From IMG/VR virus record IMGVR_UViG_3300035670_000044, positions 1 to 64,000 of that record: 64,000 nucleotides of DNA; one strand, written 5' to 3'. The position numbers and the translations under genes are program-made. Under the pieces are notes generated by a model that worked only from the letters and a program-made list of their open reading frames with translations, was not told the origin of the DNA and made no database searches. Of the stretch, positions 3,003 to 28,803 are shown piece after piece; the first letter of the stretch is position 1; each line of letters begins with the position of its first letter. The DNA comes from a virus.

Positions 3003-3206
3003 GTGACACGTCCATCCAAAGACAAGATTGACACCGTCAAAAAGTTGTGCTCGGGGTACGGTTTTGAGGCGATACCCGGTCACTTTTTCTTCTACCTTCG
3101 TTCCGAAGGTAGACGCATAGTAGGTTACCTGGATTACCAGTACAATGACTGGAATCAAATGGAAGAGATCATTGCTGAACTGGCCGTTAGAGGGGCGTTT
3201 AAGTAA
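3003..3206 (+). CDS. Small array paralogue 12 (YGL family)
   Basis: 67 residues, GTG start preceded by GAGAAG. It returns to the YGF/YGL type with VKKLCSGYGFEAIPG and the C-terminal helix EEIIAELAVRGAFK. The stop is fused to the next start as TAATG. Confidence 0.6.
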   Translation: MTRPSKDKIDTVKKLCSGYGFEAIPGHFFFYLRSEGRRIVGYLDYQYNDWNQMEEIIAELAVRGAFK

Positions 3207-3466
3207 TGAACTGGATGTACCAGAGGGGGTTAGTTTGGGAAGAGACTACGCGTCAGTTAGATAGTGTTTGTGACCGTTTGGGTCTTAGATGGTACTGCAA
3301 GATAAGCACTGCCGAGGTGATATTTCACCGGTCAAACCCTGTTGAGCATAATCTCGCGGTGTGTTTTGGAAGCCCGGATTACAGTATAATGAGGGAATCA
3401 GCAATGTGGATGACCAGTAGTCAGATAGAAAGTATCCTTAGAGGGTGGTTGGATCATGGGGTTTAA
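3206..3466 (+). CDS. Small array paralogue 13 (YGL family)
   Basis: 86 residues. QLDSVCDRLGLRWYCK is recognisable as the family helix, and the C-terminal end QIESILRGWLDHGV is diverged. Overlaps the next gene by 11 nt. Function unknown. Confidence 0.55.
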   Translation: MNWMYQRGLVWEETTRQLDSVCDRLGLRWYCKISTAEVIFHRSNPVEHNLAVCFGSPDYSIMRESAMWMTSSQIESILRGWLDHGV

Positions 3467-3722
3467 TCAAAATAGGTTAACACGATGGGTGTGGCGAATC
3501 ATGCCCACGGCCCTTCGCTACTATTTTCTGGAAAAGTTGTGCGAGAGAAACAGTTGTACAATATTCAAAAGCGAGCGCAGAAGATACGAACACGAAGTTG
3601 ACGTATGGTATATATCTGGGGGGGACATTGTGGGGTATGTCGGATCGATAAACCCCTTCGACGACTGGGAAAACATCGAGAAGTCTGTGCTAGAATACTC
3701 CGTAATCAGTACTTTTAGGTAG
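3456..3722 (+). CDS. Small array paralogue 14
   Basis: 88 residues, start inside the end of paralogue 13; an internal ATG at 3501 is an alternative. EKLCERNSCTIF is a degenerate family helix and WENIEKSVLEYSVISTF resembles the C-terminal helix of paralogue 12. A promoter-like GTGCTAGAAT lies in its 3' end. Confidence 0.55.
   Translation: MGFNQNRLTRWVWRIMPTALRYYFLEKLCERNSCTIFKSERRRYEHEVDVWYISGGDIVGYVGSINPFDDWENIEKSVLEYSVISTFR
3687..3696 (+). promoter_or_regulatory. Host-type extended -10 promoter
   Basis: GTGCTAGAAT lies inside the end of array gene 14 and would drive array genes 15 and 16. Confidence 0.45.
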
Positions 3723-3967
3723 TGGGAGACGGTGATATCGGCAACTACGACCGGTTGCGCGAATTGTGCAAAGAGTATGGGCTAGTGGCTATCCGGGATG
3801 ATAATTCGGCAAAGTGGGTGTTGGGGACATTAGCCCCTGGCTCGGACTGGGAGTATGTTCGGGTCGCTCAGGTGTCAGACATGGACTTGCACTACACGCC
3901 GTGGAGACTAGTAGAAAAACGCACCGTTACGGCCATTCTGGATCGGAGTTTTACCGAACATGTTTAA
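3722..3967 (+). CDS. Small array paralogue 15 (YGL family)
   Basis: 81 residues, GTG start sharing the G of the previous TAG. LRELCKEYGLVAIRD is a near-consensus family helix. The C-terminal helix is replaced by LVEKRTVTAILDRSFTEHV. Overlaps the next gene by 8 nt. Confidence 0.55.
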   Translation: MGDGDIGNYDRLRELCKEYGLVAIRDDNSAKWVLGTLAPGSDWEYVRVAQVSDMDLHYTPWRLVEKRTVTAILDRSFTEHV

Positions 3968-4205
3968 TTGGGAGGACTGGGTATTCCGGTCGGTATATAA
4001 ACATTCCCCACTGCCCAACCCCCGGGTTGCCCAGGAGTGCGAGAAATATGGCATGCGGGCAGTCTTCGACAGGAGTAGCCGAAGGTATCTGATCGGTAGC
4101 GGAGACACCCTGTACGGGTCAGTCGGTGACAGGCTTAGCGAGACGGACCTGGAAGACGCCATCGCCGAGTTATTTGTCACCGGGCCGTTCAGAAGTATCC
4201 CATAA
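3960..4205 (+). CDS. Small array paralogue 16 (YGL family), end of array
   Basis: 81 residues. AQECEKYGMRAVFD is the family helix and DLEDAIAELFVTGPF the C-terminal helix, close to paralogue 12. Last copy; its 3' end overlaps the convergent minus-strand gene by 36 nt. Confidence 0.55.
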   Translation: MFNWEDWVFRSVYKHSPLPNPRVAQECEKYGMRAVFDRSSRRYLIGSGDTLYGSVGDRLSETDLEDAIAELFVTGPFRSIP

Positions 4206-4358
4206 CCAATTCGGTAGCAAACCCCCCACCGCCCCATCGAGTTGTCGCACCAGCAAGCGCCCTAGCCGGATCGCTATGGGCTTTACCACCACCTCAGCCA
4301 GCATTACTCCGGCGAATGAAGCCAGGGCCGTATGGACGTCGGATACAACCGGTGTCAC
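4170..4358 (-). CDS. Small membrane-like protein, unknown
   Basis: 62 residues, GTG start overlapping the previous stop (GTGA). The N-terminal half ALASFAGVMLAEVVV is hydrophobic enough for a short membrane segment. Convergent with the paralogue array. No family recognised; short length and overlap with a + strand gene lower the confidence. Confidence 0.4.
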   Translation of the reverse strand: MTPVVSDVHTALASFAGVMLAEVVVKPIAIRLGRLLVRQLDGAVGGLLPNWLWDTSERPGDK

Positions 4359-4567
4359 TTGACCAGGCCGGCAGGTGCGTGGCAGTCCGTAAGCCTGTAT
4401 ATGAGCTCGTAGCCCGGCTCTAGGGATCGGTGGCTCTTAGGGCGTGTAGGAAGGGCTAGCAGGTCCTCGTACACGTCGGTACGGGTCGTATACACAACAA
4501 CCTCGGCGGCGTCGTAGTCGTACGAGATAGCGGTTTCGGCGTAAAGCTCGGGTGCGGGAGTCTCCAT
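4355..4567 (-). CDS. Hypothetical acidic small protein
   Basis: 70 residues, ATG start with AGGGG just upstream. Acidic and tyrosine-rich N terminus, translationally coupled to the gene at 4170-4358. A GTGAAAGC element upstream is a one-base variant of the late promoter. Function unknown. Confidence 0.45.
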   Translation of the reverse strand: METPAPELYAETAISYDYDAAEVVVYTTRTDVYEDLLALPTRPKSHRSLEPGYELIYRLTDCHAPAGLVK

Positions 4568-4715
4568 CCCCTGCTTTCACCGGATTCGCCCCGCCCCCGT
4601 ATCACCACCTGGATTGTGTCAAAACAGCCCCTTAGCCAAACCCAAAGGAAAAGTCCCCGCAACCTCCCATACGCCCATTATTAATCTTTACTAAATAAAA
4701 AGGATATATATATAC

Positions 4716-4961
4716 ATGGGTTTAGGGGGAGCGGCGACTTGGGTGAGGGTTGATTTCTGGGAAAATTTCAACCCAGTCATAGCAAGCGATCTGGGGGAAG
4801 CATTTTACCCAGACACCCGATACAGGGGGTTGTCTCACGCTCTACCTGGGGGGGGCGAGATTTTCTATCAAAACACCCCAAAGAAAACTACGACCGATTG
4901 GGGTCAGAATTTTGAGAATTCCGGGGTAAACCGGCCCGCTAGCGATATAAAAAAGTCTTAA
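4716..4961 (+). CDS. Possible small protein, unknown
   Basis: 81-residue open frame with AAGGA 13 nt upstream of its ATG and aromatic-rich content (RVDFWENFNPV). Codon composition differs from neighbours and nothing is recognisable. It may be chance in a G-rich spacer. Confidence 0.25.
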   Translation: MGLGGAATWVRVDFWENFNPVIASDLGEAFYPDTRYRGLSHALPGGGEIFYQNTPKKTTTDWGQNFENSGVNRPASDIKKS

Positions 4962-5243
4962 CCTCAGTTAGGTCATCTTTGGGATACAGATGATGGTCAA
5001 ATTGGGGTCTAAAGGTGGGGTAAATATCCATGTTTTGATACTAAATTTCACTTTTTGATAATTATAATGTTTTGCTACCAGCCCCATTTTCCGACCATTT
5101 CCCCAAACCCCTTGCACCATGGTGTATTTCAGCCATCTGACCCCCCTGCTGGGTTTGGGGTCTCCTCATGCCGTCTGTTTGCGTTTAATTGAGAAAAAAA
5201 ATCCCCCACAGGTTTTGGTGATAGCTTATCAGAGGGGGTTATC

Positions 5244-5253
5244 GTGCTATACT
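5244..5253 (+). promoter_or_regulatory. Host-type extended -10 promoter
   Basis: GTGCTATACT lies about 30 nt before the 368-residue gene, the best -10 match of the class (TATACT). The palindrome GATAGCTTATC just upstream could be an operator. Confidence 0.55.
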
Positions 5254-5284
5254 GACCCCGGAGCCATTTTTCTATCATTTCACT

Positions 5285-6391
5285 ATGACCCTGCCCAGAC
5301 ACGCCAAACAGATTTTTGATGAGCCCTACCCCAGCATCACCTGGCTCAGATCCATGACCAAGGAGAATTTGCTCCTGGCCCTTCTGGAGATGAAACGAAC
5401 GTACTCCGAGGATTCGATGAGGGTGAAGGAGATGGAGCACACCCTGGCGATGGCCGAGATCGACATTAGAAAGCTCGAGCTTCAGTCCAAGCTGGAGGCC
5501 ACCAACAAAATGATCCAGTACGGGGTAGAGATCAAAGAGCACCAGTATGGACCTAAGGCCATCGGTGACTTTGCATCGATCTGGAACGGGGAGAGCGTTA
5601 AGAACACAGTCAAACCCCTTTCCGACTCCGACCTCTCCGAGCGGGCTAACTTGGCCGAGGAGCAGGGGATTGTCTGGAACCTGCAGAACAAACGACCGGG
5701 GCGGGAGTCTACTATCCGAAAGAAAGTGGAGGAGTGGGAGAAAGGATTGGATCGAGGGTTGAATGCCAACCTCACTATCTACGCTGCCAGAAGTGCGGAG
5801 GCGATCAGGTCATCAGGATCGGATTACCGGGCCTTTATGACTGGCCTATGTATGCAAATGGAGCAGCGGTTGGGTAAGGGACCTCAGCACAAGTACCTAG
5901 TGCCGAGGTTCAAGAATATATCCAAACAGTACCGTCAGACACTGCCGGTCGTACAAGACCCGCCTGAGGCTGCCAAACCCGCCGAGGATACGTCTCGATC
6001 CGTTATCGAGCTCATTTACACCGAGTGGCTTGGCAAAGGTTACAAGCAGGAGCTCAGGGACTTTGATGACCGCGAGGGCACTTTCTCCCAGGAGCAGTTC
6101 TCCAACTACCTGGAGAAACACGCCGAAATTCTACGCAATCTCGACCCAGACGAAAGCGTCCGAGACCTTAAATTTTCGTCCCGAGTACTCTGGGACACAT
6201 TCCAAAGATCAACATATCACCTCATCAAAGACCGTATCGACTGGCACATCCCCTGCAGGAGGAGCGAAGAGCTTTGCATGTTCAGAGATGTGTACCAGGA
6301 GTATAAAAAGGTCGAGGAATCCCGCAAGGCGTACAACGAAATGATGCACGCCTGGTGGATTCAAATGTGCGACAGGTTGGGGTTGAAGTAG
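5285..6391 (+). CDS. Hypothetical protein with N-terminal coiled coil
   Basis: 368 residues, ATG start shortly after a promoter. Residues about 35-85 are a charged amphipathic helix likely to form a coiled coil; the C-terminal two thirds are mixed helical with a Trp- and Cys-containing end (HAWWIQMCDRLGLK). No signal peptide or membrane segment. No domain recognised. Stands alone between a spacer and a strong convergent terminator, so it is its own transcription unit and probably early. Confidence 0.75.
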   Translation: MTLPRHAKQIFDEPYPSITWLRSMTKENLLLALLEMKRTYSEDSMRVKEMEHTLAMAEIDIRKLELQSKLEATNKMIQYGVEIKEHQYGPKAIGDFASIWNGESVKNTVKPLSDSDLSERANLAEEQGIVWNLQNKRPGRESTIRKKVEEWEKGLDRGLNANLTIYAARSAEAIRSSGSDYRAFMTGLCMQMEQRLGKGPQHKYLVPRFKNISKQYRQTLPVVQDPPEAAKPAEDTSRSVIELIYTEWLGKGYKQELRDFDDREGTFSQEQFSNYLEKHAEILRNLDPDESVRDLKFSSRVLWDTFQRSTYHLIKDRIDWHIPCRRSEELCMFRDVYQEYKKVEESRKAYNEMMHAWWIQMCDRLGLK

Positions 6392-6393
6392 AC

Positions 6394-6426
6394 CGAGGGG
6401 GGGGGGAAGGTTAACCCCCCCCCCTT
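6394..6426. terminator. Bidirectional G10/C10 hairpin terminator
   Basis: Ten G at 6397-6406 and ten C at 6415-6424 enclose AAGGTTAA. It lies between the converging stop codons at 6391 and 6431 and forms a very stable stem in either transcript. Confidence 0.65.
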
Positions 6427-6430
6427 CTCA

Positions 6431-7867
6431 CTAATCACCAATCCCCCTGACCGCCATCTCAGCAATTACCTCCGGTTCAATTTTTCCGGAGACGGTCGGA
6501 ACCTTCCGATCCACACTCTCATCACAGAAATAGTAATCAGGGTTGTACTCAGTACCGTTACTCTTCGAGATCTTAATGGTAGGAAAATTGTCCAGGTATG
6601 ACAATTTGCATAGGGGTTCCAAGCCAGACTTAAACAGGTCTTCGTTAATACGGTGGAACCTGCTAAGCACTTGGGACTCCAGAGTCCCCTCGACAGTTTT
6701 TCCATACCACTCCCTCCAGATTATTCCGCTAGAGAGAAAGAACATAAACGCCCTGTCATCCTCCAGTTCCAGAAGCTTCTTGCACATCCCGAGCCTGCTA
6801 GTAATCGTCTTATAGACTTTTTCAAGCTCAATTTGACATTTATACGGGCCGAAGTCACGGTCAAGTCCTGTCCGTGAGATGTCTCGGTACAAAGCGGACA
6901 AATCGAGATCGTCTAGGGTCTGAATCTTGGAGATATTCCTGGAAGCAATTACCGTCCAGAGTAAGTCGGACAAGTAGTAGCTAAAGTCACTGCTACCTAA
7001 GTTAACCCTATTGGACCACCCATACTTCCGATTGTTTCGAGAAGTTTGGGCTCGAGCTCTGATTACGTCATGGGCAAGGAAGTCCCTGTATAGGGCAGCG
7101 TACGCGTCAAGACAATCATCAGATTGCAGATCAGGATCACCCTTAACCGATTTGATTACGTCCCGTACGTTTGAAGGACGGTTAACGTAAATAAACCGGT
7201 AGAGTAACTGGTAATCCGGTACAGAAGTTTTCACAAACTTCGCATACTGTCCCTTCGGAGTGTAGTACTGGCAAGGGGCAGGAGACTTGGATAGAGCCTT
7301 AGTAACCTGGGAGTCGTTGATCAGGTCGTGGGCCCTAAAGGATATCAGAAGGGGAAGCCTGAAATAGACTAAATTACCCGAAATGATTTTCTTTACATTA
7401 GCCTTTACATCAACATCTTTGAGCTCACGAGAAAGTTCTGCTCCGCTTAGAGTAGTCCAGATGGTCTCCAAAATCTTGGCACTGCAAAGATTAGGGGACG
7501 TTAGCAGAGCCCTAGACGTATTGATTCGGTTACCGCTCTTGTTGCTGATAGTGTGTAATTTGGAGGTTTTGCAGAATAGCTGCGGGTCTGAGTAAGCATC
7601 GTAGATTTGCTTAACGAACTTGTCCTCATTAAATAGATTCAACAACTCAAAGCTGGGGTTGGCTATCACCTCCTTGAGGTAAAGGCGAGCCGCCATGCAC
7701 ATGGTGGTTGAATCACAATTCGGATTGGAGGCTACTGCTTTCCTGACCCTGGTGGATTTAGTGGAGTCCCAGGCATCCCTCAACTGTTTTTGCGTGGAGG
7801 AGGGATCGATCGCGATCCGGTACAGGTCTTCCACCCCCATCGACGGATTACTTACGGTTGCTTCCAT
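6431..7867 (-). CDS. LRV-type repeat protein, unknown function
   Basis: 478 residues from the ATG at 7867; the longer frame upstream is a shadow of the zinc-binding gene. Residues about 10-90 carry units such as VRKAVASNPNC and KEVIANPSFELL, typical of leucine-rich-repeat-variant (LRV) alpha solenoids. The remaining 390 residues are helical with no recognised motif. Cotranscribed with the zinc protein, overlapping it by 20 nt. Likely a protein-binding scaffold; target unknown. Confidence 0.7.
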   Translation of the reverse strand: MEATVSNPSMGVEDLYRIAIDPSSTQKQLRDAWDSTKSTRVRKAVASNPNCDSTTMCMAARLYLKEVIANPSFELLNLFNEDKFVKQIYDAYSDPQLFCKTSKLHTISNKSGNRINTSRALLTSPNLCSAKILETIWTTLSGAELSRELKDVDVKANVKKIISGNLVYFRLPLLISFRAHDLINDSQVTKALSKSPAPCQYYTPKGQYAKFVKTSVPDYQLLYRFIYVNRPSNVRDVIKSVKGDPDLQSDDCLDAYAALYRDFLAHDVIRARAQTSRNNRKYGWSNRVNLGSSDFSYYLSDLLWTVIASRNISKIQTLDDLDLSALYRDISRTGLDRDFGPYKCQIELEKVYKTITSRLGMCKKLLELEDDRAFMFFLSSGIIWREWYGKTVEGTLESQVLSRFHRINEDLFKSGLEPLCKLSYLDNFPTIKISKSNGTEYNPDYYFCDESVDRKVPTVSGKIEPEVIAEMAVRGIGD

Positions 7868-14186: not shown

Positions 14187-14259
14187 GCGGGTTTAGCAAT
14201 CTGGTGAATGCAGCGAACTCATAATTCGCCGAAGGTGGGTTCAATCCCCTCAACCCGCA
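14187..14259 (+). tRNA. tRNA-Met (CAT)
   Basis: GCGGGTT/AACCCGC acceptor stem, anticodon stem GCGAA/TTCGC with loop CTCATAA, T-loop GTTCAAT. No encoded CCA. The CAT anticodon could also be an Ile2 tRNA after lysidine modification. Confidence 0.85.
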
Positions 14260-14268
14260 TGAGATTTA

Positions 14269-14350
14269 CGGAACGTGGTGGAACTGGTAGACACACCGGA
14301 CTTAAAATCCGGTGCCGAAAGGCGTGAGAGTTCGACCCTCTCCGTTTCGA
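14269..14350 (+). tRNA. tRNA-Leu (TAA)
   Basis: Acceptor CGGAACG/CGTTTCG, anticodon stem CCGGA/TCCGG with loop CTTAAAA, long variable arm TGCCGAAAGGCG, T-arm GAGAG/CTCTC. Uninterrupted, whereas the cyanobacterial chromosomal Leu(UAA) tRNA usually has a group I intron. Confidence 0.9.
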
Positions 14351-14380
14351 TTGGGTTGGTATTTTTTCAACCCTTACATT

Positions 14381-14454
14381 GTCCGCTTAGCTCAGTTGAA
14401 TAGAGCAGCGAACTTCTAATTCGTAGGTCGGGGGTTTGAGTCCCTCAGCGGACG
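14381..14454 (+). tRNA. tRNA-Arg (TCT)
   Basis: Acceptor GTCCGCT/AGCGGAC, D-arm TAGCTCAGTTGAATAGAGCA, anticodon loop CTTCTAA, T-arm GGGGGTTTGAGTCCCTC. Reads AGA codons. Confidence 0.9.
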
Positions 14455-14457
14455 CCA

Positions 14458-14528
14458 GCGGGTATGGTGTAGTGGTAACATCCGAGTTTTCCAAACTCTA
14501 GTCATCGGTTCAAATCCGTTTACCCGCT
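14458..14528 (+). tRNA. tRNA-Gly (TCC)
   Basis: Acceptor GCGGGTA/TACCCGC, D-arm with GTGGTAAC, anticodon loop TTTCCAA, T-loop GTTCAAATC. Only 3 nt after tRNA-Arg. Reads GGA/GGG. Confidence 0.88.
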
Positions 14529-16587: not shown

Positions 16588-16612
16588 TTAAGTCCGTGCC
16601 GTCCCCAGCGAG

Positions 16613-19390
16613 ATGTCCCACCTAAACCCGATCGGGTACTCCATTCTTCCTCCGAATATGGCCAAAGCTTGTTTCGGGGAGGAGGCTGTGGCGGAGTATG
16701 AGCTAGGGTATTACACAAAAGTACTGCGAGATTCAAGCCTATCGTTCGTAAACGATATCAAAGAGGAGATGGAGAAATTTGGGGTTGAGTTCCCCATCAA
16801 AAATCCGGAGTCTTTTACCAATCTACCGGAGTTTTACATTCCCCCCCTCCGTGGAAAAAACATTGCTGAGCACTTTGACAACATCGGGAAAGAGATACTT
16901 TTAGGGAAGGTTCAGTTACTTAAGTCATTTGCTAACTGCGAAATACCCGAACCCCCGGGGGCGTCAGATCTCGTTTATTCCCCGGGCTGGACACGTTACC
17001 GTTGGGATCCAAACTCCCCCTGGGTGTGGACCGCAGAGGGTGTTGGTGGATCCGGATTGCGCGACGTGCCGATCGCCGTTTTTGACTGCGAAACCTTTGT
17101 CAAAGGTTCTGATTTCGGGCATCCTATACTTGCGACAGCCGTATCCCCCGACTCGTACTGGGTCTGGATGCACGAAAGTTTTGTGGACGAGACAATACCT
17201 TACAAGCCGGAATTGGTACCTTTGGGGACAGTCAATTCCCTCCTGATCGCCCACAACGTCGGATTTGACCGTCAACGTACCCAGGAAGCATACTATCTGG
17301 AGCACGACCCGTTCCACCCCACCAAACCCTTCGGAAACTTGTGGTTTGACACCATGTCCGCCCACATCAACGTTTCTGGGTTGGCGTCCGAACAGAGGTT
17401 CATGTTCACCCAAAATGACCCATCGTTTGCTGGGGTAACCCGTCCCGTTTGGGCCGAAAAAGGTTCCATGAACAACCTGGTGGACGCGTATAACTTCCAC
17501 TGCCAGCCCACTATCCCCCTGGAGAAAGAGTCCAAGAATACTCGAAACCTCTTTGTTACAGCGGAGTCGATGGGGGATTTTGTTCCGAATCGGGATGAGC
17601 TGGTAACCTACGCCCTTCGGGACGTCAAAACTACATACGACCTGTATTCCGTATTGGTTCTGAAGTATCTTCAGTCCAATCCCTCTCTCACCACTCTGTA
17701 CGGACATTTTGCCCAGACAGGATCGGTGTTGCCGGTAACGTCGGGTTGGACTGACTGGGTGGATAACTGCGAGAAGGTGTGGGAAGAGTCTATATCTAGA
17801 CAAGATGAGCTGTTGGGGGAAATGGCTGAACAGTTGCTGAAGGATTGGCGTGAAGACGAAGTAGACGTCGAATCGGATCCCTGGTTGTCTCAACTGGATT
17901 GGGAAGCCAACTACGCACTGAAGAAAGATGGTAAACCTAAATCGGTGTGGTACGGAATACCCATGTGGTACAGAAAAAACGCTAAGAACAGCAAAGAGCT
18001 AGGTCGTATTGTCCTCGAGCCTATTACCACAAAGAGCAGGGTCAGCCACATCCTATTGAGGTTGAAGTGGAAAGGACAACCGTTGGTGTACAACAGCTCG
18101 TTGGGTTGGACTTACTGGGATGACGAGAAGTCTCAGTACGAAAGAATCCCACACCCCGACGGGGACGGAGTCAATGTGGGAGGGGTTTTGAGCAAAGATT
18201 ACCTGGATGATTTTGAGTCAGGCACCTTGTCCAGCGATTTGCCTCAGGCTCAAGAACTAATTAAACTCTCGATCAAGGTTTCTTATTGGACTTCAGTCCG
18301 TAGTCGTGTCAAGGAACAATTGCCTGTAATGGCAAATGACTCCCCAGATATGACCATCATTATCCCCCAAACTGTACCCCACAACACCGCCACTAATAGG
18401 GCCGGAGAACGCCTCTGGTTAACTGTCCCGGACCCCAAGCCCGACAAAATTGGGACGGAGGTAAAGACTAGAGTGCAAGTAGAGTCACCCTGGACTTTTG
18501 TTTCCTCCGACTATGACGGTCAAGAATCCGTGGTGGCTTCAATCTTTGCGGATTCTTATTACAAGATAGCTGGCAGCACCCAATTTGGCCATAGTGTCTT
18601 GGCAGGATCAAAAGAAGACGGAACAGATATGCACAGTATGACTGCTAAAACCATCAGTATTTCAAGAACTATTGCTAAAAACTGCAACTACGGGATGCAA
18701 TATGGATCTGGAGCTAAAACTCTGGCGGCCACTATCCGAAAGGGTAATAAGTCAATTTCTCAAGAGCAGGCTTTGTCAATGGCCAGAATCCTGTTATCTA
18801 GGAAAAAGGGAAAAAAAGCTTCAGCCATGTCCCCCAATTATATCGGCGGTAGTGATTCATACTCTTATAACGAGATGGCCAGAATTGCCAATACCCCCGT
18901 CCCTGTTAATCCACTATCCGGAACCAGAATGTCCACAGCCTTCAGGCCACAAGTTGTCGGCAAAGACTTCTTCACTATGAGAAATAACTGGGTCATTCAA
19001 TCCACCGGAAGTGCTATGCTCCACGCATTTCTTACGGCCATGGAGCATCTGACTCGTCGTTTTGGAGTACCAGCTAGATTCTGCATGTCCGTACACGACA
19101 GCGTGTTGTTTATGTGCCGAGAGGAGGATGCCGACCTGGTCAGTGCTTTGTACCAGATCGCTCACTTGTGGTCGTGGGCCTGGCTTCGCTACAACTACGG
19201 TATCTGCGAGATGCCACATGCCAATGCGTGGTTCAGCAGCATCGAGGTGGATAAGATTTTCCGCAAGTCGGCCACAGCCAGCACCGTCACTGTGTCACAG
19301 CCCATCAGCGAGCCGGATGGTCGCGCCCATACGATTACAACCCTGGTTCCCGTGCTAAACTCTCTTCGTACCCTAGAACAAGTCACATGA
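16613..19390 (+). CDS. Family A DNA polymerase resembling mitochondrial Pol gamma
   Basis: 925 residues with proofreading and polymerase domains. Exonuclease motifs: FDCETF (about 158), IAHNVGFD (about 213), and YALRDVKTTYD (about 334). Polymerase motifs: SSDYDGQES (motif A), IAKNCNYGMQYGSGAKTL (motif B), SVHDSVLF (motif C, catalytic HD). The stretch GSTQFGHSVLAGSKEDGTD then HSMTAKTISISR follows mitochondrial Pol gamma (GCTAFGWMTLQGTK...GTDLHSKTA) more closely than bacterial Pol I. Pol-gamma-like polymerases have been described in a few cyanophages. It replicates the phage genome; the helicase and primase lie outside the window. Confidence 0.93.
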   Translation: MSHLNPIGYSILPPNMAKACFGEEAVAEYELGYYTKVLRDSSLSFVNDIKEEMEKFGVEFPIKNPESFTNLPEFYIPPLRGKNIAEHFDNIGKEILLGKVQLLKSFANCEIPEPPGASDLVYSPGWTRYRWDPNSPWVWTAEGVGGSGLRDVPIAVFDCETFVKGSDFGHPILATAVSPDSYWVWMHESFVDETIPYKPELVPLGTVNSLLIAHNVGFDRQRTQEAYYLEHDPFHPTKPFGNLWFDTMSAHINVSGLASEQRFMFTQNDPSFAGVTRPVWAEKGSMNNLVDAYNFHCQPTIPLEKESKNTRNLFVTAESMGDFVPNRDELVTYALRDVKTTYDLYSVLVLKYLQSNPSLTTLYGHFAQTGSVLPVTSGWTDWVDNCEKVWEESISRQDELLGEMAEQLLKDWREDEVDVESDPWLSQLDWEANYALKKDGKPKSVWYGIPMWYRKNAKNSKELGRIVLEPITTKSRVSHILLRLKWKGQPLVYNSSLGWTYWDDEKSQYERIPHPDGDGVNVGGVLSKDYLDDFESGTLSSDLPQAQELIKLSIKVSYWTSVRSRVKEQLPVMANDSPDMTIIIPQTVPHNTATNRAGERLWLTVPDPKPDKIGTEVKTRVQVESPWTFVSSDYDGQESVVASIFADSYYKIAGSTQFGHSVLAGSKEDGTDMHSMTAKTISISRTIAKNCNYGMQYGSGAKTLAATIRKGNKSISQEQALSMARILLSRKKGKKASAMSPNYIGGSDSYSYNEMARIANTPVPVNPLSGTRMSTAFRPQVVGKDFFTMRNNWVIQSTGSAMLHAFLTAMEHLTRRFGVPARFCMSVHDSVLFMCREEDADLVSALYQIAHLWSWAWLRYNYGICEMPHANAWFSSIEVDKIFRKSATASTVTVSQPISEPDGRAHTITTLVPVLNSLRTLEQVT
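19352..19361 (+). promoter_or_regulatory. Host-type extended -10 promoter
   Basis: GTGCTAAACT in the last codons of the polymerase gene, 26 nt before the next start. Confidence 0.5.
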
Positions 19391-24922: not shown

Positions 24923-24941
24923 AGGAGTTTGGCGTTACTAC

Positions 24942-24959
24942 TTCTATATAGCTTTCAAC
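24942..24959 (-). promoter_or_regulatory. GTTGAAAGC late promoter, minus strand
   Basis: GTTGAAAGC TATA TAGAAG, a full match; drives the DUF1320-like gene. Confidence 0.7.
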
Positions 24960-24970
24960 GCGGGGTGGTG

Positions 24971-24990
24971 GTTGAAAGTATGTTAGGATG
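24971..24990 (+). promoter_or_regulatory. Late-type promoter variant for the homing nuclease
   Basis: GTTGAAAGT ATGT TAGGATG, one mismatch in the core. Back-to-back with the minus-strand copy at 24942-24959. Confidence 0.5.
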
Positions 24991-25015
24991 GGTGTATAAG
25001 CTACTAGCTGTCGCT

Positions 25016-26204
25016 ATGCCTGATAACAACTTCGTGGTTTATGCGTATGTCCGGAGTGGTCCAGATAGGTTCGGCAGGGTCGGGACGTTTTATTACATTG
25101 GAAAAGGTAACCTTAAACGACCGTATAAGTGTGGGAAGGGGAATAGAAGGGTAAACTGCCCTAGAGATAGAAAAAATAATATCATTATTTTGCACAAAAA
25201 CTTAAAAGAAGAAACGGCTTTTGACTACGAAAAGAAATTAATTGAGTTCTACGGAAGGATAGGCACCACCGATTTTGGAATTTTAAGGAATTCTACAGAC
25301 GGGGGAGAGGGGGCATCAGGCGCTTACCAGAGTTCTGCCGACTGGTGGCACCCTTTACATGGGGAATTTTTACAAAAATCTTGCACAGAGATAGCAAAAA
25401 TTAGTAAAGACAAGAGCACAATATTGAGCGGTTTATCCCAGGTAATTAACGGAAAGTCTTTTTCTTACAAGGGCTGGAGACTGTTAAAAAATAAACCTAA
25501 AAGTATGCCGATTCAATATGTAAGAATTGACTGGTACCATAAAGATTTTGGTTACCAGTACAGTAAAACATGCAAAGAGATAAGGGCTGTGGATACAAGA
25601 TTAAAAACTTATTCTGAACTATACCGTGTAGTTCTTAAGGAACATGTTGAGGCCTGGGGTTGGTGTAGGGCTGATAGAATACCAGTTCATTACATGAAAC
25701 ACAACTGGTTTAATGAAAAATTTGGGCAGATTTACAATAAAACCGCCACTGAAATCATAGATATTGCAAAAGATCCTAACCTCAGAATAGAACGTTTACA
25801 TGGGATAATAGCCGGAAATGTGAAAACAACTTTAGGCTGGTGCAGTCTAGAAAATATATCAATAAAGTCTAAAAAAATGTGACTGGTATCATCCAGATTT
25901 TGGTATACTTGTTGGGAAAACTTCTCTAGAAATTTTAGAGATAAGCGGAGAGAATTTCAGGGTTAGCAGGTTATACGATGTTATTAACAAAAAATCTAAT
26001 GAGTATAATAAGTGGTGCAGAGCAGATAGTATACCTAGACGACACTGGAAGTTTAATTGGTACCACCCTTTTCACGGAAAAATACTGCAAAAAACAGCAC
26101 ATCAAGTAAATGTTATGTATAACATAACATACAGATTAGACTATTTGCACGATGTTACAACAGGAGTTAGGCTTAGTTATCTTGGCTGGACTGTTTTTAA
26201 ATAA
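25016..26204 (+). pseudogene. GIY-YIG homing nuclease with five DNA-binding repeats, frameshifted
   Basis: From ATG 25016: VVYAYVRSGPDRFGRVGTFY YIGKG is a GIY-YIG core, then five repeats of about 52 residues of the form (D/N)W(Y/W/F)HPxFG...KT..EI...L..V..G....GW. The frame stops at 25882 after an A7 tract (25869-25875), between repeats 3 and 4; repeats 4 and 5 continue in the +1 frame to the TAA at 26204. One extra A, or transcript slippage on the A7, would restore a protein of about 395 residues. AT-rich, free-standing, antisense to the surrounding head genes. Confidence 0.6.
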
Positions 26205-26230
26205 AAAAAAAGCCCACCTTTAGGGTGGGC
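26203..26230 (-). terminator. Intrinsic terminator of the capsid operon
   Basis: GCCCACC-N5-GGTGGGC (26212-26230) followed on the minus strand by nine T. A textbook terminator 20 nt after the capsid stop; it also lies at the end of the convergent homing-nuclease gene. Confidence 0.85.
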
Positions 26231-26249: not shown

Positions 26250-28803
26250 TTAGACATTAGTTGAAACAGGATTCAGGAAGAGGGCGCCAGCGCCAACTCG
26301 ACCAGTTTCACCCATGCCAACGAGCTCAAAAGAGCGCTCGACAAGGATGTCGCCTTCGAAAACACGACGGTCCATATTGAAGCGCTCGGGGGTAGAGATC
26401 GGATAGCCAGACAGCGTATAGGTATACGCAAATGCCGGGGTACCGTAGTTAGCATCCAGAGCGGGGGTAAAACCGTCAGTGCTGTTGCTAGGATGGTAGA
26501 ACATAATAGCAACGTTGTTGTAGACGTTCTCCAGAGCACCAGTTTCCTGGTTCAGCTTGAGACGGCGAGCAACGCGAATCTCGTCGAGACCAAAGATCTC
26601 AGCGAGGCTCTTCTCGTTCACCAAAATACCGCGCTGCATGAAGTCACGGATTCGTTTGTTCAGTGTTGTTACCGTAGAGGCTCTTTATCCTCTACTTCTG
26701 CATGTTACCATGCAGCTCAGACTATATCATCACCGAGAAAAATTATTATTCTCGGGCTGGGCGCTCGTGGACAGGTTATTGTTGGGACTCACTGTCTAGT
26801 CGTTGAACCTTTCGGAGGAACTAAGCCCGCCTCCGGCTTGGCTTCTGATTGCCCCGTAGAACGGGGGTTTCCAGAAATTCACCCAGTTTTCTAGCATTAA
26901 GACAAGCAGCACCCTATTACTCTCCAACCCTTGTGTTGGAAATGTTTATCAGGGTGGTTTATTAGGTTACAAATAGCAGATTTGGTCAAACCGTAATTTT
27001 TTACGTCTGACAGATAAATTTGTACTTGGTTACCATTGGGGTCTAAAAATAGGTATTTTCTTTCCCCCTCTCGTCTATAGCCGTTCTTTTTCCTATCTTG
27101 AAAGGCCTTGAACCTTCTCAGTCTTCCCTCTTCAGTAACTTTTCTCTTCGAAAAGCTATGAATCATTCTTTCTTTGAACTTAGGGTCAGACCATCTCTCT
27201 TTGGACTGTTGTCCTATGAGATTTTTTGTACTATCAGATCTAACTTTGCCTACATTTTTACCGATATTTCCTTGCCTGATGTTTTTTACAGCATCTTGGG
27301 TATGTTTATACCCTTTGGAGAAGCTACACCCGCCCTTGGTAGCGATGCTCTTATTGGCAAAACTAGGGTTAATGTCAACTCTCAGTGACTTATGTAAAAA
27401 ATATTCAAACTCAGACGCCTTTTTTCTCGTATCAAAAAGGCACAAAATGTGCTTTTCTTTCGGCATAAAGGTCTCGTCGGTAGAACTACCCATGTAGGGG
27501 TCCTCCCATGGATTTTCATGGGACCTACACCCAATGTAGTGTCTGTTATCTTCACCAACTACATCATACACGTAGTGGATGTAGTCAGAGTCAGATCTTT
27601 TCAGGTTCATGGCTGTTCAGGGAAAATCTATTGGCTTATCTAGGCGCTACTATTTTAACGCTTAAGGTTGTTGAACGCATCGGGAGACAGAACGAGCTTG
27701 TTAGGATAGCAGCCGATTTGGCCACGAACCTGCTCCTTCATCTCGTCAAACAGCACTTCGACGTCAGAGGTCGGGCTGTTAAACTGGTCAGCACCACCGT
27801 TGTAGGTAGCCAGGTCCAGAACGTTGCCGGATTCGTATTGGGTTACGTCCAGAATTTTCTGGCTGACTTGGATCTCCCAACTCTGCATGAGGCGGTTAGC
27901 AGCATCCTTAGCGGCATATGCGCGAAGGTCAATGGCGGCGGCGCCATTTTTTGCTTCTGCGGCCACTTCTTCAGCAATCTGCCAGCTAATGGCTTCTTGG
28001 CGAAGAGCAAAGCTCCGGGTACCGAATTCATTAGAGATCTTCTGAATGTTGGTACCAGGTGCACGCAGGAAGGACTGAGCGGCGAATGCCTCTTTGCCGA
28101 ACACCAGGCTGCGGCCAGCCCTGACGCTCATAGAGACGGCAGGGGCGAAGAAGGTAGCAACACCTTCTGTATTCTTGTACAAATTGTTAACGCGAGGGTA
28201 TTTAACCTCTCGCTTCTTACACTTTCATGTAAGTTCGGACTATATCTTCGGCCCAATGGGCCGGAGGGCGCTCGTGGAGAAATCATTACCCGGTCTGGGT
28301 AGTTCCTCTAGTCTCTGAACCTTCTGTTCCGTTCCCGAAACAGCTTGGCTGCTGATTGCCTTAGGGAACGTGTTCCCCTTAGGTTTCCCAGCAATTCACC
28401 CCCTAATCATACCACGAATTACTCCGAGGCACGGCTACAAAATTAACCTTGTGCGAGTTGCGTGAGGATCGGATCGATCACCAAAGTGTTTCACTGGGCG
28501 TTTTAATTCCCAGCTCTCCAACTTTCGTGTGAACAGCGATTGTTGTTGTTAAATTGTCGAGGTTCACGAGCCCTAAGGCTCTGGAGTATCGGACTATATC
28601 ATCACGGAACTATCACCGTGTCGGGCGCTCGTGGACAGGTTATTGTTGGGACTCACTGTCTAGTCTCTGAACGTTACTGGGAACCTGAGCCCTCCCAGTC
28701 TTCGCTGCTGATTGCCGTATCGAAATAATCCGAGTTAGGTTTCCAGCAATTCACCCGATTTTAAAGGCGCGAATCAGTCACGCACTTGATCTAAATTCAT
28801 CAT
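26250..28803 (-). CDS. Major capsid protein, split by three group I introns
   Basis: Four exons on the minus strand: 28803-28780 (MMNLDQVR), about 28481-28446 (VIDPILTQLAQG), 28179-27658, and 26660-26250; about 330 residues after splicing. Joined, the start reads DPILTQLAQG-YKNTEGVATF, the conserved opening of this capsid family, then SLVFGKEAF...LRAPGTN. Every junction keeps frame, follows a U and ends the intron with G. The third exon joins the fourth as NNLKR-NKRIRDFMQRG. The exon 1/2 junction is the least certain; an alternative (exon 1 to 28784, exon 2 from 28491) would give QVNTLVIDP. Shell-forming protein of the head; terminator right after. Confidence 0.8.
26661..27657 (-). mobile_element. 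Group I intron C with homing endonuclease gene
   Basis: 997 nt. Core elements on the minus strand: GTTCAACGACTAG (26808-26796) and GATGATATAGTCT (26732-26719), the two sides of P7. Preceding exon ends GCGT and the intron has GCGC 12 nt in as the likely guide. The core stretch ACTAGACAGTGAGTCCC is nearly identical to that of intron A, so the two share recent ancestry. It hosts the GIY-YIG gene. Confidence 0.85.
26897..27610 (-). CDS. Intron-encoded GIY-YIG homing endonuclease
   Basis: 237 residues. YIHYVYDVV...HYIGCRS is the GIY-YIG core at the N terminus; the middle has NUMOD3-like repeats (DAVKNIRQGNIGKNVGK, TKNLIGQQSKERW) and the C terminus a NUMOD1-like helix-turn-helix (LSDVKNYGLTKSAICNLIN). 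Cleaves intronless capsid alleles to spread the intron. Entirely inside intron C. AT-rich relative to the capsid exons. Confidence 0.85.
   Translation of the reverse strand: MNLKRSDSDYIHYVYDVVGEDNRHYIGCRSHENPWEDPYMGSSTDETFMPKEKHILCLFDTRKKASEFEYFLHKSLRVDINPSFANKSIATKGGCSFSKGYKHTQDAVKNIRQGNIGKNVGKVRSDSTKNLIGQQSKERWSDPKFKERMIHSFSKRKVTEEGRLRRFKAFQDRKKNGYRREGERKYLFLDPNGNQVQIYLSDVKNYGLTKSAICNLINHPDKHFQHKGWRVIGCCLS
28180..28445 (-). ncRNA. Group I intron B in the capsid gene
   Basis: 266 nt. Contains the exact canonical strings GTTCAGAGACTAG (28320-28308) and AAGATATAGTCC (28248-28237). The exon ends AGGT; GCCT 15 nt into the intron can pair with it as P1. Ends in G before TAC AAG. No open reading frame. 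Its P7 region matches T4-type introns better than introns A and C do. Confidence 0.85.
28482..28779 (-). ncRNA. Group I intron A in the capsid gene
   Basis: About 298 nt, after only eight codons of the capsid gene. GTTCAGAGACTAG (28672-28660) and GATATAGTCC (28600-28591) form P7; the core is nearly identical to intron C. The exon ends GCGT and GCGC lies 10 nt in. Ends at TTTG before GTG ATC; the 3' site is inferred from frame and could shift by a few nt. No reading frame. Confidence 0.75.

Follow-up and report, generated by a model that had tools for sequence, protein, structure and literature searches.

It is already known that one phage virion gene can hold three group I introns with a tiny exon between them. 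The closest described case is orf142 of the Staphylococcus phage Twort, where the small exon is 23 nt long (PMC10136302, PMC11878797). It differs from the locus presented here in being a tail tube gene of a phage with a Gram-positive host, and in that exon skipping has been observed there, whereas our locus is known from sequence alone. With the Rfam group I covariance model (RF00028) we recover three neighbouring matches in Twort at 16606-17506, and the intron cores described below are about 41-65% identical to the Twort cores. Three-intron genes that exchange endonucleases are known as well. In the available portion of the report on the Vibrio phage ICP1, the tape measure gene has four exons and three introns, as here, and endonuclease genes come and go in these fixed introns between isolates; that gene belongs to the tail, however, and the same portion describes no tiny exon (PMC10448857). 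Finally, introns in capsid genes are not new: the mycobacteriophage LittleE and the lactococcal phage Tuc2009 have a probable group I intron in the major capsid gene, and for LittleE both the spliced RNA and the protein have been demonstrated. These are other introns, one per gene and in other hosts, and in LittleE the endonuclease is encoded on the opposite strand, unlike the intron ORF found here (PMC3706429). Cyanophages S-PM2 and S-CBWM1 also carry group I introns, but in psbA, a metabolic gene; the two annotated introns of S-CBWM1 psbA are 55-66% identical to our cores. In the literature we found no account of S-TIM5-like cyanophages in which introns repeatedly target the capsid gene and leave a series of alleles around it. 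What we report is an ordinary mechanism at unusual density, and we consider the observation sound.

The locus comes from an uncultured cyanophage, IMG/VR virus record IMGVR_UViG_3300035670_000044 (127,396 bp); its bases 1-64000 form the 64,000-nt stretch that we call the window. The features are listed in Table 1, where, as in the text, L numbers of two or more digits denote IMG/VR contigs. The original prediction was that three group I introns interrupt one minus-strand capsid gene, that a protein of about 330 residues reads through once they are removed, and that the second exon is only about 36 nt. All of this is borne out: the spliced exons (24 + 36 + 522 + 411 nt) encode exactly 330 residues with no internal stop, the second exon is exactly 36 nt, and the full frame is present only when introns A, B and C are taken out. 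The product matches the major head protein profile phrog_1005 (E 1.4e-63), its residues 1-322 covering positions 3-310 of 315. Synechococcus phages S-TIM5, S-TIM61 and S-TIM66 have an unsplit capsid protein that is 79.5% identical to it over 327 residues. The surroundings are those expected in a head module: a head maturation protease is encoded two genes upstream, and past the 3′ side there is a head-tail adaptor. Elsewhere in the window, four tRNA genes are clustered at 14187-14528 (+).

Table 1. Features of the interrupted capsid gene, in window coordinates.
Feature	Position	Strand	Description
Exon 1	28780..28803	-	24 nt, codons 1-8 (MMNLDQVR); codon 8/9 continuous in unsplit alleles
Intron A, group I	28482..28779	-	298 nt, without ORF; RF00028 67.6 bits; distinct 110-nt 3′ domain
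Exon 2	28446..28481	-	36 nt, codons 9-20 (VIDPILTQLAQG); also intron-flanked in L158/L159
Intron B, group I	28180..28445	-	266 nt, without ORF; RF00028 82.9 bits; in-frame TAA at start
Exon 3	27658..28179	-	522 nt, codons 21-194
Intron C, group I	26661..27657	-	997 nt; guide GCGC; in-frame TAA at start; RF00028 93.3 bits
Predicted homing endonuclease ORF within intron C	26897..27610	-	237 aa, ahead of P3; phrog_314
Exon 4	26250..26660	-	411 nt including stop, codons 195-330
Intrinsic-terminator-like hairpin and T run, 3′ of the capsid gene	26203..26230	-	GCCCACCCTAAAGGTGGGC then T9, read directly

Just downstream of the capsid gene, on the opposite strand, there is also a free-standing ORF of 317 aa (window 24929-25882, +) that resembles cyanophage Seg-like endonucleases, some of them with a NUMOD3 motif. 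Its relatives sit at the same place and in the same orientation beside many unsplit capsid genes, a layout reminiscent of segD in T4, a gene that runs in the opposite direction to genes 23 and 24 (PMC2988022). A further similar piece in another frame, at 25875-26189, suggests a frameshifted or repeated DNA-binding module.

The covariance-model search named as a check in the original prediction gives three matches above the RF00028 gathering score of 50 bits (93, 83 and 68 bits for C, B and A), all in the capsid gene: 26698-26928 minus for intron C (E 1e-22), 28216-28455 minus for intron B (E 1.4e-19) and 28571-28789 minus for intron A (E 5.5e-15). A scan of the entire 127,396-bp record returned nothing beyond these three. 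To evaluate covariation, 30 named pairs in P3, P4, P5, P6, P6a and P7 were followed across 15 introns in a plain sequence alignment. We observe that 98.2% of the cells are paired and that both sides have changed in 17 of the 30 pairs, which none of 500 shuffles equalled; sliding the partners, as a control, brings pairing down to 24-45%. As an example, the P7 pair 109-206 switches from G-C to A-U. Covariation thus strongly supports the predicted P3-P7 core, with its P7 pseudoknot, in these introns. In all of them the exon end pairs with the guide to form P1, with a U.G pair at the splice site, and introns A, B and C all have the U at the 5′ splice site and the terminal G, in agreement with the original prediction. 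In intron A the guide GCGC pairs with the exon end GCGT. At this site, three introns combine an exon end GTGCGT with the guide GCGC and four combine GTCCGT with GCGG; guide and exon base, the latter synonymous, change together, a compensating change between exon and intron. In subgroup IA of the group I introns, the 5′ strand of P7 is separated from the 3′ strand of P3 by an additional segment, P7.1/P7.2; introns A, B and C have about 30-45 nt at that place, a candidate for such a segment.

Intron A has the lowest RF00028 score of the three and fits the model poorly in its P9 region. Together with the lack of endonuclease genes in A and B, as relics would show, this is what one would point to if one or more of the introns had decayed and could not splice, so that no capsid protein came from this copy. 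We judge this very improbable. The core pairs are kept in all three introns, with compensating changes; the unusual 3′ domain of A is itself conserved with compensating changes in two other phages; and the exons retain an open capsid frame.

The junctions can be fixed because unsplit alleles read through them: 52 distinct IMG/VR alleles run gap-free across codons 8/9, 20/21 and 194/195 (sites A, B and C). The empty site C reads AAGCGT|AAC in 40 of these 52. A covariance model built from 15 of the introns and run over 75 unsplit or truncated relatives found a sole match, in a contig that begins inside an intron, and an RF00028 scan of the 172 kb of S-TIM5, whose capsid gene is unsplit, gave no match. 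On the other side of the comparison are the filled sites. Site A is occupied in L023, L026-L030, L033, L052, L158/L159 and L196/L198, and site B in L018/L019, L031/L032/L136, L065, L097, L151, L164, L195 and L158/L159. Among the relatives compared, site C is filled in this record only; L097, with 99% capsid identity over 158 columns, has it empty. The pair L158/L159, from the same phage group, has introns at A and B around the same 36-nt exon; it differs in the third intron, which is not C but an intron D at codon 51/52 with a GIY-YIG ORF (E 2e-8), and splicing in silico gives a full capsid protein. The 36-nt exon is therefore found between two predicted introns in at least two phages.

On a tree of the capsid proteins, introns A and B are patchy, with at least five changes each; L158, with A, B and D, adjoins the unsplit L162/L163. 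The base at -1 of site A is T in 7 of 7 intron alleles vs. 5 of 52 unsplit ones (p 2e-6), and at site B in 6 of 6 vs. 11 of 52 (p 3e-4), both p values being optimistic because the alleles are related. Either flanking exon has been copied along with the intron or this base is selected by pairing.

The combination of three introns is known from one metagenome record, and one could ask whether the three segments are not introns at all, but products of assembly or mosaic insertions in a broken gene. A chimera is unlikely because the A and B layout recurs in L158/L159. In addition, each of the three segments is a group I model match, their removal leaves an exact frame, and other phages have these sites occupied while more than 50 have them empty. 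We give this explanation next to no weight.

The comparisons establish the gene, its junctions, the ribozyme architecture, the related alleles and their patchy spread. We consider it very probable that the late capsid transcript of this S-TIM5-like cyanophage contains three predicted autocatalytic group I introns and, by their splicing, would yield one intact capsid mRNA. Each intron would fold separately, and its internal guide would pair with the end of the preceding exon, placing the U.G pair at the splice site. External guanosine would then be used, and the joined exons would form the mRNA for the 330-residue major capsid protein. In unspliced RNA, translation would end no more than two codons from each 5′ splice site.

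Splicing might also be used to make more than one product. If the 36-nt exon were partly skipped, or if A and C mis-paired through their interchangeable guides, the result could be a second form of the capsid protein or a control of its amount. Exon 2 has 12 whole codons, so that skipping it would keep the frame, and the guides of A and C both begin GCGCC and both target GCGT. Skipping is known for the 23-nt exon of Twort orf142 (PMC10136302) and for one exon of the SIOphi terminase (PMC11878797). On the other hand, every full-length relative keeps the 12 residues, the end of exon 1 is no match for the guide of B, and in engineered tandem introns distinct splice-site sequences suppress skipping (PMC10136302). 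Alternative splicing thus seems unlikely to us, and a single intact mRNA remains the preferred reading.

How the three introns are related is a separate question, and here the original prediction fared less well. The cores of A and C, described there as nearly identical, agree in 78.8% of 165 aligned columns and share one block of 43 identical nt. These cores do share ancestry. It had further been proposed that A is a relic of C or vice versa. However, A and the site-A intron of L052 are alike over their full length (about 80% identity), and the structured 110-nt 3′ domain of A (window 28482-28590) is common to the site-A introns of L052 and L158, with compensating changes, and occurs in no other locus compared, C included. 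A is therefore not a deletion derivative of C; it has a lineage of its own at site A. In trees of 171 columns, approximately unbiased (AU) tests reject A and C as a sister pair, weakly (p 0.033), and reject A, B and C as one clade (p 0.013), but do not reject site A plus C as one clade (p 0.335). A sister relation between C and intron D, for which a shared hexamer AAGCGT and similar 3′ hairpins had been considered, is rejected as well (p 0.02); the 3′ hairpin of C and D is widespread in phage introns. Introns at different sites seem to have swapped modules, since L031 at site B and L023 at site A have the same P7.1/P7.2 segment. Given this apparent exchange and trees of 171 columns, the fine branching is unsure.

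With regard to B, a separate arrival had been suggested. This is right insofar as its nearest kin are site-B introns of other phages (L158 and L065), but all three introns fall within one sublineage. Nor is B the one closer to T4-type introns: compared with the one of three T4 introns that aligns well, B is the least similar of the three, with 52% identity vs. 58.5% for A and 60% for C. The closest capsid relative, L097, has a different type of intron at site B, which amounts to replacement of introns at a fixed site.

The likeness of A and C could still have arisen within one gene, if guide-directed reverse splicing turned an A-type intron into C or the other way round. The shared core with its identical block, the common guide start and target and the unrejected clade of site A plus C would all fit such a move, and for rDNA introns of fungi a case has been made for reverse splicing that relies on short matches to the guide (PMC1299323). 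Yet the guide must fit any landing site, which makes the shared GCGT weak evidence; module exchange between sites would give the same likeness; and A and C differ in their 3′ domains and 5′ ends and are rejected as a sister pair. We would call a within-gene move possible, and rather doubtful.

As had been noted, a homing gene is present only in C. Its 237-aa ORF belongs to the homing endonuclease family phrog_314 (E 2.8e-20) and is a predicted homing endonuclease. Pfam gives no match at E<1 except a chance one to Uma2, with no GIY-YIG domain matched, PDB sequences give chance matches only, and a scan of viral_contigs for relatives found none. A single-sequence structure prediction (pLDDT 40) was not used. 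Distant relatives do occur in the phage collection, in cyanophages, including one beside psbA in S-PM2. With a pLDDT of 40 and no Pfam match, the activity assigned to this ORF rests on the PHROG family and these distant relatives. If active, the enzyme would copy C into unsplit alleles.

The other sites present a different picture of endonuclease content. Site-A relatives have a GIY-YIG ORF ahead of P3 (E 3.1e-16), those of site B have one that is HNH-like in loop L5 (E 0.0012, short of the Pfam cut-off), and the second introns of L096 and L116 an HNH-like ORF in loop L8, judged by eye. That both the families and the loops differ points to one ribozyme sublineage having acquired such genes repeatedly. 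Because relatives carry endonuclease genes at sites A and B, introns A and B of the window have probably lost theirs, and we take them to be endonuclease-free alleles of the introns that bear GIY-YIG and HNH-like genes elsewhere.

We had considered that only this phage has an intron-rich capsid gene, and dropped the idea, as relatives also carry capsid introns. In the ten intron-bearing records of the phage group, all 16 introns are in the capsid gene, 3 here and 13 in the nine others (14 listed matches, the third G008 match being the distal part of the second G008 intron); five long relatives (39-159 kb) have no introns. The insertion points lie after codons 3, 12, 24, 8, 20, ~51, ~68 and 194, eight sites in all, of which those at codons 3, 12 and 24 are found in a divergent capsid lineage (L096, L116) and that at ~68 in the truncated L186. 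Seven of the eight lie within the first 68 codons, with the caveat that the searches would place introns from later parts of the gene further down. Exons can be even smaller than in the window: L096 (2300-3950) has a first exon of 9 nt (ATGATGAAT) and a second, between group I introns, of 27 nt, and L116 (reverse strand) a first exon of 9 nt (ATGATGAAT) and a second of 66 nt.

Beyond the phage group, a search with an intron-internal motif returned 46 contigs, 37 of them with the intron in capsid genes of phrog_1005, 1328, 14242, 9953 and 267, a count obtained from tested representatives together with those contigs whose introns and exons are identical or similar to theirs. The remaining introns are in or near tail or other virion genes, or unassigned. 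With a broader group I motif, 77 contigs had model matches, at least 22 in capsid genes and 7 in psbA; the apparent capsid preference is thus partly general to environmental phage introns or due to the choice of contigs in IMG/VR. As this choice favours hallmark genes and many of the motif contigs are nearly copies of one another, the preference of the sublineage is a lead rather than something measured. Tentatively, one may imagine a group I sublineage specialised on phage major capsid genes, reaching at least five protein families and several places per gene, mostly near the start, perhaps by guide-directed reverse splicing into the most abundant late mRNA; we hold this to be possible without expecting it. 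In the same material, L203 has six group I cores within a few kb (3034-7695), L251, L265, L272 and L208 have four to six within a few kb each, and L091, L107, L112 and L115 have near-identical cores beside virion structural genes.

Hundreds of capsid copies are needed per particle, so three introns in the mRNA would demand near-complete splicing. The related loci form a natural series, with sites empty, filled with or without an endonuclease, and one to three introns combined, in which endonuclease loss, replacement of introns at a fixed site and movement between sites become testable, as does the question of how small an exon can be and still work (L096 has 9 and 27 nt). In Bastille-type phages the reported intron hosts are DNA polymerase, terminase and reductase genes (PMC11878797); unlike there, capsid genes are strong among the intron hosts of environmental phages. 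With its repeated insertions near the start of the capsid gene, this phage group may be a useful system for how group I introns spread.
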